From an uncultured Paracoccaceae bacterium (GTDB lineage: Bacteria > Pseudomonadota > Alphaproteobacteria > Rhodobacterales > Rhodobacteraceae), in assembly GCA_937872465.1 (NCBI GenBank), contig CALMSR010000029.1, forward strand, positions 62,001 to 126,000: a stretch of 64,000 nt of DNA, given 5' to 3'. The notes below the pieces were generated by a model, which saw only the letters and a list, made by a program, of their open reading frames with translations, did no database searches and had not been told where the DNA came from. A program made the position numbers and the translations under genes. Positions 30,194 to 57,041 of this stretch are shown piece after piece (the stretch's first letter is position 1; each line of letters opens with the position of its first letter).

Positions 30194-31651
30194 ATGGCGC
30201 TCGGCCAGCCGCCGCTGTCCTGGCCGGCCGCGCTCTTTCTCGCCCTGCCGCTGCTGCTCTGGCTGCTCGACGGAGCGCCGGGGACGCGCGAGGCCTTCCG
30301 TCTCGGCTGGTGCGCCGGCGCGGGCTATTTCGCCGCCTCGCTCTTCTGGATCGTCGAGCCGTTTCTTGTGGATGCGCCGCGGCACGGCTGGATGGCGCCC
30401 TTCGCGCTGCTCGGCATGGCCGGCGGCCTGGCGCTCTTCTGGGCCGCGCCCTTCGCGCTCGCGCGCCGGCTCTGGCGAGGGGACGGGGGCGGGGCGGTGA
30501 TCCTCGCCTGTCTCTGGACGCTGTCGGAATACCTCCGCTCGATCGTTCTGACCGGGTTTCCCTGGGGCCTGACCGCCTATGCCTGGGTCGAGACGCCGGT
30601 GATCCAGGCGGCGGCGCTGGTGGGGCCGCACGGGCTGGGGTTCCTGACGCTGCTCGCGGGGCTGCTGGCGGGGCTGGCCTCGCGGCGGGGCCTCGCGCTC
30701 GCCGCTCTGCTCGTGGCTTCGGGCTGGGGCTATGGCGCCTGGCAATTGTCCCGCCCGCTCGCTTCGCGCGATCCGCCGGTGATCCTGCGCATCGTGCAGC
30801 CCGATGCCGAGCAGCAGGCGAAATGGGTGCCCGAGAAGCAGATGGAATTCTACCGCCGCCTGCTCGCGGAGACCGCGGCGCCGGGCGACCCGCCGCCGGA
30901 CGTGGCGATCTGGCCGGAAACCGCGGTGCCCTTCGTGCTGGGCTATTCCGACGACAGGCTGCCCGAGATCGCCGCGGCGGGTCCGCAGTCGCGCACGATC
31001 CTCGGCATCCGCCGGCTCGACGCGAGGGACGGGCGCGAGGATTGGTTCAATTCGCTGGTGGTGCTGGACCCGGAGGGCATCCCGCGCGCCGTCTACGACA
31101 AGCATCATCTCGTGCCCTTCGGCGAATACATCCCGCTCGCCGGCGCGATCGCGCAACTGGGCATTCCGGCGCTGACCACGCTGACCGCCCAGGGGTTCCG
31201 TCCGGGACCCGGCCCGCATCTCGTCTCGGTGCCGGGCCTGCCGCCCTTCCTGCCGCTGATCTGCTACGAGGCAATCTTCCCCCAGGGCCTGCGGGCCCCG
31301 GAGGGCCGCGCCGACTGGCTGGTGCAGGTGACCAACGACGCCTGGTTCGGCGAGGTCTCGGGCCCCTACCAGCATCTCGCCCAGGCGCGGGTCCGGGCGA
31401 TCGAGCAGGGCCTGCCGCTGGCGCGTGCGGCCAATACCGGCATCTCGGCCATGATCGATCCAAGGGGCCGCGTCACCGAGCGGCTCGGCCTCGGCGTCAT
31501 CGGGCATTTCGACGCGCCGCTCCCGCCGGCGCTCCCGCCGACGCCCTATTCGCGGATGGGTGATCTTCCTGTACTTGCCGCATTAATATTAATTTGCGGA
31601 TTAACTGTATTAAAATTTTGGAATGGAGTTTTTCGGAGAACACCGCGATAA
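30194..31651 (+). CDS. lnt: Apolipoprotein N-acyltransferase
   Basis: 485 residues from ATG 30194. About seven N-terminal helices are followed by the nitrilase-fold domain with catalytic Glu242 (AIWPETAVPF), Lys303 (VYDKHHLVPFGEYIP) and Cys357 (PLICYEAIFP); a C-terminal helix ends the protein. It transfers the third acyl chain onto lipoprotein N-termini in the inner membrane. The true N-terminus is unclear. In-frame codons upstream of 30194 read like the family's usual start (DALSGRRRAGLAAGAGGL) but contain no ATG, GTG or TTG. A GTG at 30130 with an ideal GGAGG is one base out of frame. The last 30 codons (31570-31651) are strikingly AT-rich. Confidence 0.95.
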   Translation: MALGQPPLSWPAALFLALPLLLWLLDGAPGTREAFRLGWCAGAGYFAASLFWIVEPFLVDAPRHGWMAPFALLGMAGGLALFWAAPFALARRLWRGDGGGAVILACLWTLSEYLRSIVLTGFPWGLTAYAWVETPVIQAAALVGPHGLGFLTLLAGLLAGLASRRGLALAALLVASGWGYGAWQLSRPLASRDPPVILRIVQPDAEQQAKWVPEKQMEFYRRLLAETAAPGDPPPDVAIWPETAVPFVLGYSDDRLPEIAAAGPQSRTILGIRRLDARDGREDWFNSLVVLDPEGIPRAVYDKHHLVPFGEYIPLAGAIAQLGIPALTTLTAQGFRPGPGPHLVSVPGLPPFLPLICYEAIFPQGLRAPEGRADWLVQVTNDAWFGEVSGPYQHLAQARVRAIEQGLPLARAANTGISAMIDPRGRVTERLGLGVIGHFDAPLPPALPPTPYSRMGDLPVLAALILICGLTVLKFWNGVFRRTPR

Positions 31652-31766
31652 CTCTTTTTAGGAGTGGCGGGTGATCCGTACAGAAGTGGCAAGCAGAGAC
31701 GTCCTCTGGCGCCGCTTCCCGGAAAAACCTTCGATCCGGAATGTGGTTTATCTAGTTGGGTGTCCT

Positions 31767-32162
31767 ATGCCAGTGTCGTTGTCTGCCAGTGAAATCGACC
31801 GGGTCGTCGGTCAGCGCATGCGCCAGCGCCGCGAGTCGCTCGGCATCAGTCAGGGCCGCCTCGGCCGCCACCTCGGGCTGACCTTTTCCCAGATCCAGAA
31901 ATACGAGAAGGGTGCCAACCGGATCGGCGCGGGGCGGCTCTATCAGATCGCGACCTATCTCGGGGTGAAGCCCAGCTATTTCTTCGACGAGCTCGACAAC
32001 AACGGGGCGGAGGCGCTGCAGCCAACCGGCGGCAGCCGCGAAGAGATCCGCACCCTGACCGAAGCCTTCGCGACGATTACCGACCGGGAGACCCGCGCAT
32101 CCGTGCTGGCGCTCGTCCGCTCGCTGACCGCTCCCCTGCCGGAGGGGCGAATCCTCCGTTGA
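31767..32162 (+). CDS. XRE family helix-turn-helix regulator
   Basis: 131 residues with one Cro/CI-type HTH near residues 25-48 ([20 protein letters not shown], then [20 protein letters not shown]) and a short C-terminal tail. ATG 31767 is preferred. The upstream GTG at 31671 has a good AGGAG but would add about 32 residues in rare codons, unlike the rest of the gene. The position between lnt and metK is seen in related genomes. Targets unknown; the AT-rich stretch at the end of lnt is a likely promoter and operator region. Confidence 0.93.
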
Positions 32163-52933: not shown

Positions 52934-53019
52934 GCGTATCCTTCCATCGCCGATCGCGCGAGCCTAGCCGGGGCATTGGCGATGGACAATCGCCTTGGCG
53001 CTTGGAATAGCATGCGCCC

Positions 53020-54246
53020 ATGGAGCGGCATTGCGATGTCCTGATCGTCGGAGGCGGGCTGAACGGGCCCGCCCTGGCCCTGGCGCTGGCCTCGGGCGGG
53101 CTCAGCAGCGTGGTGATCGACGCCCAGCCGCGGGCGCGGCGCGCGGCGCCGGAATTCGACGGGCGCGCCTATGCGCTGGCGCTGTCGTCGCGGCGCATGC
53201 TCGCCGCATTGGGGCTCTGGCGCGACCTGGCGGCGCAGGCGCAGGCGATCAACGACATCAAGATCAGCGACGGGCGGGCCGGCGAGGGGGCCGCGCCCTG
53301 GCATCTGCATTTCGACCGGAACGAGATCGACGAGGGCCCGATGGGGCATTTCCTCGAGGATCGCTACCTGCGGGGGGCGCTGCTCGACGCCATCGACGGC
53401 AGCGCGCTGATCGAGCATCGCTCGGAGACGGAGGCCGTCGCCCAGGCGCCCGGGCCCGGCGGCATCGCGGTGACGCTTGGCGACGGCAGCCGGCTCCGGG
53501 CGGCCCTTCTGGTCGGCTGCGACGGGCGGGGCAGCCGGGTCGCCGCCCGCGCCGGGATCGCGCGGCTGGGCTGGGAGTATCGCCAGAGCGCGCTGGTCTG
53601 CGCCGTGGAGCACGAGCTGCCGCATCACGGCATCGCGCATCAGTTCTTCATGCCGCCGGGGCCGCTGGCGATCCTGCCCCTGCCGGGCAACCGGTCCTCG
53701 ATCGTCTGGACCGAGGCGCGCGACCGCGCCGCGGTGATCGCGGGGCTGGAGAGGGAGGCCTATCTCGCCGCGCTCAGGCCGCGGTTCGGGGATTTCCTCG
53801 GCGGGATCCGGCTGGCGGGCGCGCGCTTCGGCTATCCGCTTGGCCTGTCGCTGGCCGAGAGCTTCACCGCCGAGCGGGTGGCGCTGGCGGGCGATGCGGC
53901 GCATGGCATCCATCCGCTCGCGGGGCAGGGTCTGAACCTCGGCCTGCGGGACGTGGCCGCGCTCGCGGAGGTTCTGGTGGAGGCGCATCGCCGCGGGCTC
54001 GACATCGGCGCGCCGGACGTGCTCGCGGGCTACCAGCGCTGGCGGCGGTTCGACACCGCCATGCTGGTCGCGGCCACGGACGGGCTCAACCGGCTCTTCT
54101 CCAACGACAACCCGCTCCTGCGCCTGGGGCGCGACCTCGGCCTGGGTCTGGTGAACCGGCTGCCGGCGCTCAGGCGCGGGCTGATCCGCGAGGCGGCGGG
54201 TCTCGCGGGGGATCTTCCGAAGCTGCTGCTTGGGCGGCCGATCTAG
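53020..54246 (+). CDS. UbiH/UbiF/Coq6 family FAD-dependent hydroxylase
   Basis: 408 residues with the three flavoprotein-monooxygenase motifs: VLIVGGGLNGPALALALASG (dinucleotide fold), LVGCDGRGSRVAARAGI (DG motif) and RVALAGDAAHGIHPLAGQGL (GD motif). The COQ6/UbiH signature around the last motif points to a hydroxylation step in ubiquinone synthesis; which ring position it serves cannot be read here. The start is 86 bases from the divergent amidase. Confidence 0.94.
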   Translation: MERHCDVLIVGGGLNGPALALALASGGLSSVVIDAQPRARRAAPEFDGRAYALALSSRRMLAALGLWRDLAAQAQAINDIKISDGRAGEGAAPWHLHFDRNEIDEGPMGHFLEDRYLRGALLDAIDGSALIEHRSETEAVAQAPGPGGIAVTLGDGSRLRAALLVGCDGRGSRVAARAGIARLGWEYRQSALVCAVEHELPHHGIAHQFFMPPGPLAILPLPGNRSSIVWTEARDRAAVIAGLEREAYLAALRPRFGDFLGGIRLAGARFGYPLGLSLAESFTAERVALAGDAAHGIHPLAGQGLNLGLRDVAALAEVLVEAHRRGLDIGAPDVLAGYQRWRRFDTAMLVAATDGLNRLFSNDNPLLRLGRDLGLGLVNRLPALRRGLIREAAGLAGDLPKLLLGRPI

Positions 54247-54336
54247 GACGGCCCCGGTGACGGAAGCTCGGGACATCGCGAGTGGTCCGGCCGCTCGCGC
54301 CGGCATCGACCGCGCCCGGCAGGCGGCAGGTACAGT

Positions 54337-54365
54337 TTGAAGTCCCGGCGCCGATTTGGTAGCTG
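54337..54365 (+). promoter_or_regulatory. Candidate promoter for the tRNA gene
   Basis: TTGAAG (54337-54342), 17 bases, TAGCTG (54360-54365), which would start transcription a few bases before the tRNA. The -10 match is weak. Confidence 0.35.
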
Positions 54366-54375
54366 GATGGTCGAG

Positions 54376-54451
54376 GCCCCGTTAGCTCATCCGGTAGAGC
54401 GCTGGCTTTGTAACCCAGAGGTGGTCCGTTCAAGTCGGACACGGGGCACCA
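54376..54451 (+). tRNA. tRNA-Thr (anticodon TGT)
   Basis: 76 bases including an encoded CCA. Acceptor GCCCCGT pairs with ACGGGGC; D arm GCTC/GAGC; T arm GTCCG-TTCAAGT-CGGAC. The anticodon loop TTTGTAA gives anticodon TGT. The base pair closing that loop (31-39) is C-C, an unusual mismatch; the other four anticodon-stem pairs are normal. The gene stands alone, and its 3' end borders an AT-richer region. Confidence 0.93.
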
Positions 54452-54944
54452 AGACAAGTACTTAAATCATTGCAATGTAATGCTATTTTATTATGTGCAC
54501 TTGATTGGAGCCACCTTTCAGTCCACCCAAGAGATCGTGATGAGTCCAAGTGGTTTCGCCATATGGGCGGATTGCCTCCGCACACCGTTTGGTCGTCTGA
54601 TACCGAATCCGGTTGATTGATTCCATCGGGGAATCCCCCCCCGCCGGAATCAATCAACCGGATTCGGTATGACACATGCTGTCATGGCGACCAGTAAGCC
54701 ATTGGATTGCCGAGACCACCACATTTGTGCCAACAGCCTGACCCGCAGGTCGAACGTTTCGGTCCGGCCTGCGCAAGGTGCCACACAACAGGGAGGCGGG
54801 TCGTCCCGGGTTCCTGGGTGCAGGTGATCACAGGCACTTCCTGGTCGGCCATGGCGCCGCTCCGCGCGACGAAGAATGACGCCTGCGGTGCCGTCGCCGC
54901 GTGAGCGAAAGTGCGAGAGCGACTGGACGCTGCCGCAGGGTCCG
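54452..54944. other. AT-richer gap after tRNA-Thr, possible relic of insertion
   Basis: 493 bases with the lowest GC of the window in the first 60 (near 54455-54515). It contains a 25-bp perfect inverted repeat (54600-54670). Short frames exist on both strands, for example a 56-codon minus frame 54682-54852 rich in Cys and Trp, but none has a recognisable family. The position at a tRNA 3' end and the odd composition suggest remnants of integrated DNA; no integrase is visible. Confidence 0.5.
54600..54670. repeat. 25-bp perfect inverted repeat with 21-base loop
   Basis: Arm ATACCGAATCCGGTTGATTG plus ATTCC (54600-54624) is the exact complement of 54646-54670. The loop 54625-54645 itself contains GGGGAATCCCC. 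Candidates are a miniature transposable element, paired ends of a vanished insertion sequence, or a very strong terminator. I see no second copy in the window and no target-site duplication. Confidence 0.85.
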
Positions 54945-56504
54945 TCATGGGCCAGGCATCGGAAGCTCCGCCTCGATCGAAGCTTTGATGAAGTCGCTGA
55001 CCAGCACGTCGAGCCGCACCGTCCATTGGCCGCCCACCGGCAGCTCGACCGGGCCGGCGAGCCAGAGCGGGCCGTCGCGGGACGCCTCGAGGCGGATCGG
55101 CTCGATGCCGCGGGCAGGGTCGGCGAAGCTGATCCTGACCTCAAGCGGGTCCAGCTCGCCGCCGTCGGCTGACATCAAGGCGATCTCGATGCGGTTCGCT
55201 CCCGGTCGCCCGGGCTTCAGCGTGACGTCCGCCATCACGTTCGGCCCGTGCATGTGAACGTAGGCCTCGGACGCCGCCGCCGCGAGTGCACGGGGTGGCG
55301 GGGTCAGACGGAAGCCGCTGGCGAGGCAGAGGATCGCGACTCCGAGCAGGATCTCGGCTGCGACCGACCGCCGGAACCGCCGCGCCGCCCCGGTCTCTCC
55401 CCGTTCGATCGCGGGCGTCAGCAGCAACCGGTTCACGGCCGCGAGCGCGAGAAGCAGCGCGACCGCGACGAGCTTGGCGAGGAGCAACCGGCCGTAGGCG
55501 CTCGCGACCAGCGCTGCCGGGGTGCGCATCTGCACGATGGCGAGCAGCGCACCGCTCAGGAGGAGGAGCGCGACGAGCGGCATCGCCAGCGCCGAGAAAC
55601 GCCGGAGTGTCGGAACGAGGGCCGCGCCTGGCGAGGCCGCCCGTTCCGCGAGCCCGGGCAGCGCGCCGATCCAGAAGACGACGGCGGCGGCATGGATCGC
55701 CACCGACGGGGCGGTCAGCCAGCGGGGAGCAGCCGTTGCCGCATGGCCGAAGAGCGCGAAGGAAACGGCGGCGAGAGCCCACGCCAGCACGGCCCAGCCC
55801 GGGGCCCGGCAGGCCGAGGCGACAGCGGCGGCCGCGGCGAGGACGGCCGTCGCCGCGAACGGGCTCGCCAGGGCCGCACGCCAGGGCGCCGGGGTGACGA
55901 GACTGCCCGGCGCGAGATCGAGGAGGTCGAGCCCTTGGAGGCCGAGCGCCAAGACCGCCAGCGGCAGCACCGCGATGGCTGAGCAACCTGCGACGGTGGG
56001 CGCCAGGCGGCCCGACCGGCCACGGTCGACGAGGTCCCGGAAGACGGCCCCGCCGACCCCGAAGACGAGGGCGAGCGTCAGGAGCCCGCGCCCGAGGGCG
56101 GCGGTCGGTGCCGAGCGCGGGGCAGCGGCTTCGGATGCGTCGGCCGCGCCGGAGGTCGCCCTGCCGATGGAGAAAGTGAGGCTGCCGCCGACCGGGTGGC
56201 CGTCGGCGGAGGCCACCCGCCAGCTGAGGAGCCAGGTGCCTTCGACGGGGTCTGCCGGCAGGGGCACGACAAGGCTGTCCCCCGCCGCCTCCGGCGCCCC
56301 CTCGATCGCGGCACCGCCGGCCGGCGGAAACCAGCGGAGGACGAGCGGCCGGACCGGCTCGCTGAAGGTCAGCGTTGCCGCCGCGGGCGCCTCGGACATC
56401 ATCGTGCCCGCCGCTGGATCGGTGGCGACGAGCTGCGCATGCGCCTGCGCGCGCGCCCCGCAGAGAAGGCACGCGAGCAGACAGAGGACGAGGCGCGCCG
56501 GCAC
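54945..56504 (-). CDS. CopC-CopD copper resistance fusion with C-terminal YtkA-like domain
   Basis: 519 residues. The signal peptide ends before HAQLVATDPAAG, giving the N-terminal histidine that binds copper in CopC (residues about 22-115, with SADGHPVGGSLTFSI). A CopD membrane domain of about eight helices follows (140-400; AALFGHAATAAPRWL-type and SGALLAIVQMRTPAALVASA blocks). The last 105 residues (YVHMHGPNVMADVTLKPG onward) resemble YtkA/FixH-type periplasmic domains. The role is copper binding in the periplasm and transfer across the inner membrane. It is the downstream member of a three-gene minus-strand cluster with YcnI and a small Cys/His protein. Confidence 0.9.
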   Translation of the reverse strand: MPARLVLCLLACLLCGARAQAHAQLVATDPAAGTMMSEAPAAATLTFSEPVRPLVLRWFPPAGGAAIEGAPEAAGDSLVVPLPADPVEGTWLLSWRVASADGHPVGGSLTFSIGRATSGAADASEAAAPRSAPTAALGRGLLTLALVFGVGGAVFRDLVDRGRSGRLAPTVAGCSAIAVLPLAVLALGLQGLDLLDLAPGSLVTPAPWRAALASPFAATAVLAAAAAVASACRAPGWAVLAWALAAVSFALFGHAATAAPRWLTAPSVAIHAAAVVFWIGALPGLAERAASPGAALVPTLRRFSALAMPLVALLLLSGALLAIVQMRTPAALVASAYGRLLLAKLVAVALLLALAAVNRLLLTPAIERGETGAARRFRRSVAAEILLGVAILCLASGFRLTPPPRALAAAASEAYVHMHGPNVMADVTLKPGRPGANRIEIALMSADGGELDPLEVRISFADPARGIEPIRLEASRDGPLWLAGPVELPVGGQWTVRLDVLVSDFIKASIEAELPMPGP

Positions 56505-56519
56505 CCCGGCCCGGGCGCG

Positions 56520-57041
56520 TCAGTGGCCGCCCGCGGCCGGCAGCAGCTTCACTCCCGGCGCCGGGCTCTCGAGGCTGTCATGGTCCTGGCCCGTGGTCGG
56601 GATCTCGATCCAGCGCTCCGCCGCGTCGGCGCATTCCTGGACGACGGGGAAATAGAGCGCCTCGCCGACCTCGAGATCGGTCGTCAGCATCGCGCGGAAC
56701 ACGAATTCGTCGTAGAAGGCATCCGGAAGCTCGCCGGTCCAGACGATCTCGGTCACGCCTTCGCTCATCGGCGTGCCGTAGTAGTCGTAGGACCTGGCAT
56801 ATTTGCCCGTCACGGTTTCGAGCCTCCAGCCGGCCTTCGGCATCGGCTTCACCGCGATCACCCCCTCGGGGATCTGTACGCGCAGCGTCTGCGTCGCCTC
56901 GCCGGCGCAGCCATGCGGGACCCGCAGAACCGCCTTCCAGCTGCCGCCGACGGTCGCCTCCGAGGTCTCGAAGGTGACGTGGGCGTTGGCGGCAGTCGCG
57001 ATGCCGGCCGCGAGCGCGGCGGCGAGAATGAGCTTGGACAT
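56520..57041 (-). CDS. YcnI-like copper-binding periplasmic protein (DUF1775)
   Basis: 173 residues. The signal peptide MSKLILAAALAAGIATAANA is cut before HVTFETSEA, exposing the histidine that binds Cu(II) in YcnI. Conserved blocks follow: RVPHGCAGEATQTLRVQIPE, GWRLETVTGKYARSYDYYGT and ALYFPVVQECADAAERW. It lacks the C-terminal membrane anchor of the Bacillus form. ATG 57041 opens the signal peptide; longer starts do not. It lies 15 bases upstream of the CopC-CopD gene on the same strand, so a shared copper role is well supported. Confidence 0.93.
   Translation of the reverse strand: MSKLILAAALAAGIATAANAHVTFETSEATVGGSWKAVLRVPHGCAGEATQTLRVQIPEGVIAVKPMPKAGWRLETVTGKYARSYDYYGTPMSEGVTEIVWTGELPDAFYDEFVFRAMLTTDLEVGEALYFPVVQECADAAERWIEIPTTGQDHDSLESPAPGVKLLPAAGGH

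Follow-up and report, generated by a model that had tools for sequence, protein, structure and literature searches.

Insertion sequences of the IS630 (Tc1/mariner-like) family, and the miniature elements related to them, are the closest described counterparts of the locus reported here. ISY100 duplicates its TA target and inserts almost only at TA, and mini-transposons carrying 30 bp of each of its ends transpose as well as the whole insertion sequence (IS) (passages on transposition in PMC2170065). RUP, an IS630-Spn1-related MITE of Streptococcus pneumoniae, is small and non-coding, with IS630-like ends and a TA target (as portrayed in sections of PMC2229807), and in these respects it resembles the element described below.

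The window, by which we mean the whole 64-kb stretch of DNA that was analysed, contains a 25-bp perfect inverted repeat that had been singled out in a first-pass annotation. The repeat is indeed exact: its 25-nt arms (54600-54624 and 54646-54670) are fully complementary across a 21-nt spacer, and they extend imperfectly, with mismatches allowed, to 54595-54631 and 54639-54675 (89%). Four inverted repeats with arms of at least 12 nt and spacers of at most 60 nt occur in the window, and the runner-up has arms of only 13 (25, 13, 12 and 12 in all). Since the longest arm in 40 simulated 64-kb sequences (order-1 Markov) was 15, a 25-nt arm lies far beyond chance. As plus-strand RNA, the palindrome folds with -57.2 kcal/mol (z -10.6). 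Comparison with IS ends suggests that the palindrome is very probably a non-autonomous, MITE-like mini-insertion of the IS630 family, built of two inverted left repeats around the 21-nt spacer, with the following predicted parts:

54603..54667, minus strand: palindromic mini-element with IS630-type ends, 65 bp (69 bp with both TA), from alignments and comparison with eight left and eight right alphaproteobacterial IS630 ends
54619..54669, minus strand: stretch in the same order as an IS630 left end, with the arm, then subterminal GGGGGATTCCCC, then GGAATC, from local alignments
54646..54669, minus strand: left-end arm, first copy, from end comparison and alignment
54601..54624, plus strand: left-end arm, second inverted copy TACCGAATCCGGTTGATTGATTCC, 24/24 identical to the other arm
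54625..54645, no strand: spacer ATCGGGGAATCCCCCCCCGCC, which folds into a G+C-rich inner stem
54601..54602: TA, left boundary, presumed half of a 2-bp target duplication
54668..54669: TA, right boundary, presumed other half of that duplication
54598..54600: TGA, left part of the 8-bp target TGATATGA, from the flank triplets of the tabulated ends
54670..54672: TGA, right part of the same target, from the same triplets
54376..54451, plus strand: tRNA-Thr (UGU), a neighbour outside the element, from a tRNA search

The search of the arm against the rest of the genome that the annotation had proposed led to an IS630 left end at C54:7418-7473, the only other strong match to the palindrome there (93% over 56 bp at the DNA level). 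This match lies directly upstream of an open reading frame with Pfam HTH_29/HTH_33/HTH_32/HTH_28/HTH_23 domains; its N-terminal part carries the winged-helix domains HTH_29 and HTH_33, and its relatives include plasmid genes with the annotation IS630 family transposase. The transposase frame is disrupted, its catalytic part continuing in another frame; two adjoining or overlapping genes are also found in relatives from Methylocystis (L044) and Thermus (L126), and a further frame change within the C-terminal part of the C54 copy looks like decay. The C54 locus is the genome's only match to the transposase query, and among 248 family genomes the N-terminal transposase part was detected in this genome alone at E<=1e-20. 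Over 24 nt, the window arm is identical at 22 positions to the left ends of the C54 element (L009), L014 and L023; L014, from a genome of the same genus (G010), is an IS fragment at the margin of a contig with the arm-type end at its head. The C54 left end has AA where the other left ends have TA. These alignments identify the arm as an IS630-family left terminal repeat.

We compared the arms with both kinds of end in a survey of IS630 elements, locating ends by TA-bounded inverted pairs around a transposase together with end-motif matching. The 22 tabulated ends comprise 10 left ends, 10 right ends and the window's two; the alphaproteobacterial ones number eight on the left (L009, L014, L021, L022, L023, L044, L070, L124) and eight on the right (L009, L021, L044, L067, L068, L069, L070, L124, with L068 and L069 having the same sequence throughout the 60 nt shown). 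Kept outside the table were L025, L026 and L027, which are distant relatives inserted at different targets; L020, whose left end was read by eye and whose right end was not located; and L104, L105 and L015, which are solitary or otherwise small elements. Although overall identity of the 24-nt ends to the arm overlaps between the two classes (16-22 for the eight left ends, 15-18 for the eight right ends), the motif that follows the core separates them: TGATTGA is present in 8/8 alphaproteobacterial left ends and 0/8 right ends, the latter reading TGATCA or TGATTA in every case. Both window arms are of the left type, from which the related right ends differ in 8/8.

These comparisons bear on internal deletion, the usual proposed origin of MITEs. 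By that route, the palindrome would consist of the left end and the right end of a single IS630 copy in which both terminal repeats were, by chance, the same, and the TA borders and target signature would fit equally; an unsampled parent IS with identical ends is conceivable. Such a parent would need a right end reading GGAATCAATCAACCGGATTCGGTA, whereas none of the eight alphaproteobacterial right ends carries TGATTGATTCC, and the left and right ends of seven two-ended relatives match at 15-20 of 24 positions, never at the 24/24 of the window element. We therefore consider an internal-deletion derivative unlikely, though it is the foremost of the alternatives. The earlier suggestion that the arms are the two ends of a lost insertion sequence holds insofar as they are IS ends, and fails insofar as both are left ends and not a left plus a right.

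The sequence immediately outside the arms also points to IS630 transposition. At 22/22 tabulated ends, the window's two included, the TA is flanked on its outer side by TGA or TCA, and the joined flanks read TGATATGA on one strand in all seven two-ended elements (L125, L126, L021, L044, L070, L124, L009). Removal of the window element joins its flanks to TCTGATATGACAC, in agreement with this target. Because the flank triplet played no role in choosing the ends, it constitutes independent evidence. L025, L026 and L027, more distant relatives, lie at other TA sites, so TGATATGA belongs to a subgroup and not to every relative; that subgroup extends to one element in Thermus and one of the ISAva6 family in Trichormus. 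A strict 8-bp target thus appears common to IS630 elements of Alphaproteobacteria, Thermus and Trichormus; among open-licence PMC papers we found none that joins IS630 with TGATATGA, and no mention of ISAva6. The same borders bear on a sequencing or assembly artefact. Fold-back chimeras yield perfect palindromes, yet a chimeric palindrome would run on into the flank and not stop at TA and the halves of TGATATGA on both sides, and the contig continues in both directions with unrelated flanks, which makes this explanation barely credible. Arm identity, TA borders and the target signature together make a mini-IS inserted by an IS630 transposase most likely.

A search with a palindrome pattern that allowed no mismatch matched this genome only among 394 family genomes (393 others), as did a looser but still mismatch-free pattern among 385 class genomes (384 others), patterns that would miss diverged double-left elements; the 10 other genomes of the genus likewise hold no copy. 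At the DNA level, nothing in those 10 genomes corresponds to the 681-bp intergenic region apart from the IS end, and an unoccupied site was not found among them because the region is not common to them. When 61 genomes, this one and 60 relatives, were searched at the DNA level, four gave matches: this genome; G010, where the match is the IS left end located where a contig stops; G043, where it is an arm-like end of another small element (L015); and G013, where it is weak (E 0.003). The same kind of search over the 385 class genomes returned this genome and G482.

G482 has two solitary IS630 left-type ends TACCGTTTCCGGTTGATTGATTCC (L104 and L105 at 1504), with similar sequence behind them and no partner arm. 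In G043, two TA-bounded small elements adjoin each other (about 1410-1530 and 1555-1720), one pairing a TACCAAGTTCGCC end with the arm-like end and the other, longer one having TACCAAGGATCA-type inverted ends. As to other replicons, neither 54300-54980 nor the palindrome alone had a plasmid match; the phage matches listed for 54300-54980 (the best 20 of 45 and 20 of 44) cover the tRNA stretch only, so that plasmid and phage origins were set aside; and the arm pattern had no exact match in viral contigs.

Lying between convergent transcription units, a very stable RNA hairpin of this kind could serve as a terminator or in processing, acting either on the tRNA-Thr transcript or on the minus-strand gene that converges with it. 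A T-run is absent on both sides, no terminator-like site was found in 54200-55000, and the Rfam matches in 53000-56600 consist of the tRNA alone; moreover, the sequence is that of an IS end. Conservation in distant relatives, which the annotation had named as a pointer to a terminator, was not seen in the 10 genus, 393 family and 384 class genomes. A role in termination or processing is accordingly very improbable.

How might two left ends come to face each other? Read on the minus strand, the window element tracks the C54 left end, from which it differs over 50 aligned nt (54619..54669) by a single substitution and an additional G, until the similarity ends exactly at GGAATC, a hexamer complementary to the last six bases of the arm, after which the inverted arm begins. 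Two head-to-head IS630 copies would likewise leave two left ends and a GGAATC junction, if recombination at a common GGAATC had removed the interval separating those ends. This would require two adjacent insertions and a deletion, whereas the arms are identical and the outer borders are halves of one TGATATGA, as from a single insertion; we regard it as distinctly improbable, less so only than a terminator or an artefact.

Most likely, the element arose by hairpin-templated inverted duplication of one IS end, followed by transposition. The C54 left end alone folds as DNA into a hairpin at GATTCC/GGAATC (-14.6 kcal/mol, z -2.7), and the C54 right end forms no such hairpin (DNA fold, z +0.65). 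An exact GATTCC/GGAATC pair is present in only three of the eight alphaproteobacterial left ends (L009, L014, L023), the hairpin being weaker in the latter two (z -1.6 and -1.7); the L044 left end, which has no exact pair, does not form it in its lowest-energy fold. In the proposed sequence of events, a strand ending in GGAATC would pair with GATTCC inside the IS630 left end, this hairpin serving as both fold-back primer and template; the outer arm would then be copied in reverse to the element tip, giving two identical ends before transposition; an IS630 transposase acting in trans would bind these ends and excise the element; and the excised element would be inserted at the TA within TGATATGA, at its present position 148 bases beyond tRNA-Thr. 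For the allele without the element, this scheme predicts the sequence GTCTGATATGACAC. The palindrome ends at the borders, and the borders are halves of one target, which implies that the element moved as a unit or that copying stopped at the tip; the transposition step is plausible because ISY100 mini-transposons move and insert at TA.

We consider it an evenly balanced question whether a MITE was born here by this route without internal deletion, a left-end hairpin templating its own arm and the resulting minimal transposon moving into strict TGATATGA. If it was, elements of this sort could arise from any insertion sequence that has a subterminal hairpin close to one of its ends, and there would be a testable route to symmetric MITEs from a single IS end.

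The annotation had also pointed to the neighbouring tRNA gene as an integration target. The palindrome lies 148 bases beyond the 3' end of tRNA-Thr(UGU) and so not at the tRNA terminus, and it bears the insertion marks of an IS630 element that targets TA; tRNA-directed integration is not supported, and the tRNA gene appears to be incidental to the palindrome. No direct-repeat family was found in 54300-55000. The locus had been called the only low-GC gap of the window: the lowest 400-bp stretch does start here, at 54351 (53% versus 70.4% for the whole window), although GC also dips in a second place, to about 55.5%, at about 31400-31950.

Upstream of the tRNA lies a gene that we take to be UbiH-like. 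Seven of the 10 same-genus genomes have tRNA-Phe next after this gene, where the window has tRNA-Thr(UGU); in G007, one of the remaining three, the UbiH-like match is a distant paralogue (35% identity). The change of tRNA suggests rearrangement or acquisition at this spot, and nothing ties that event to the mini-element. The window's tRNA-Thr(UGU) is the sole UGU tRNA among the genome's 45 tRNA-model hits, and its best same-genus match (80% over 46 bases) is a G010 tRNA-Thr(UGU) adjoining tRNA-Ser; it is possibly a replaced or acquired tRNA gene.

A MITE had been among the first suggestions for the palindrome, and much of that description fits: the element has perfect IS630 terminal repeats of 24-25 bp, is bounded by TA within the 8-bp target of its IS group and, at 65 bp, is too short for a transposase gene. 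It departs from the description in not being repeated in its genome, which holds one palindromic copy, the other strong match being the IS left end; with a single known copy, amplification as a MITE is not supported. For a protein-binding cruciform, likewise suggested, we found no independent support beyond the arms as presumed transposase-binding sites. We infer the element's mobility, its binding by a transposase, the TA duplication and the fold-back origin. No intact transposase of the IS630 kind was detected in the genome, and the element is therefore probably immobile now; its length of 65 bp may also be too short for an efficient synaptic complex. A striking palindrome would be explained as a mini-transposon and not as a regulatory or tRNA-integration feature.

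An IS630-derived mini-insertion is a known kind of element; only the symmetric double-left build and the proposed hairpin-copy origin are unusual. Correia/NEMIS and other small bacterial MITEs are similarly small, with inverted repeats and TA termini, but form repeated families, unlike the window element (as sketched in parts of PMC2229807); the likeness is one of form, and we claim no relation in sequence. RUP, at 107 bp and repeated 108 times (in the portions of PMC2229807 concerned with its copies), contrasts with the 65 bp and single copy found here, and also differs in that the window element is an almost complete palindrome with two left-type ends. Full-length IS630-family insertion sequences (ISY100 and ISAva6-like elements) share with the window element ends of about 24 bp and TA borders, and the ISAva6-family element in Trichormus occupies the same target, TGATATGA; unlike them, the window element has no transposase gene, both of its ends are left-type, and it measures 69 bp with both TA against 1031-1201 bp in the seven two-ended IS630 relatives.
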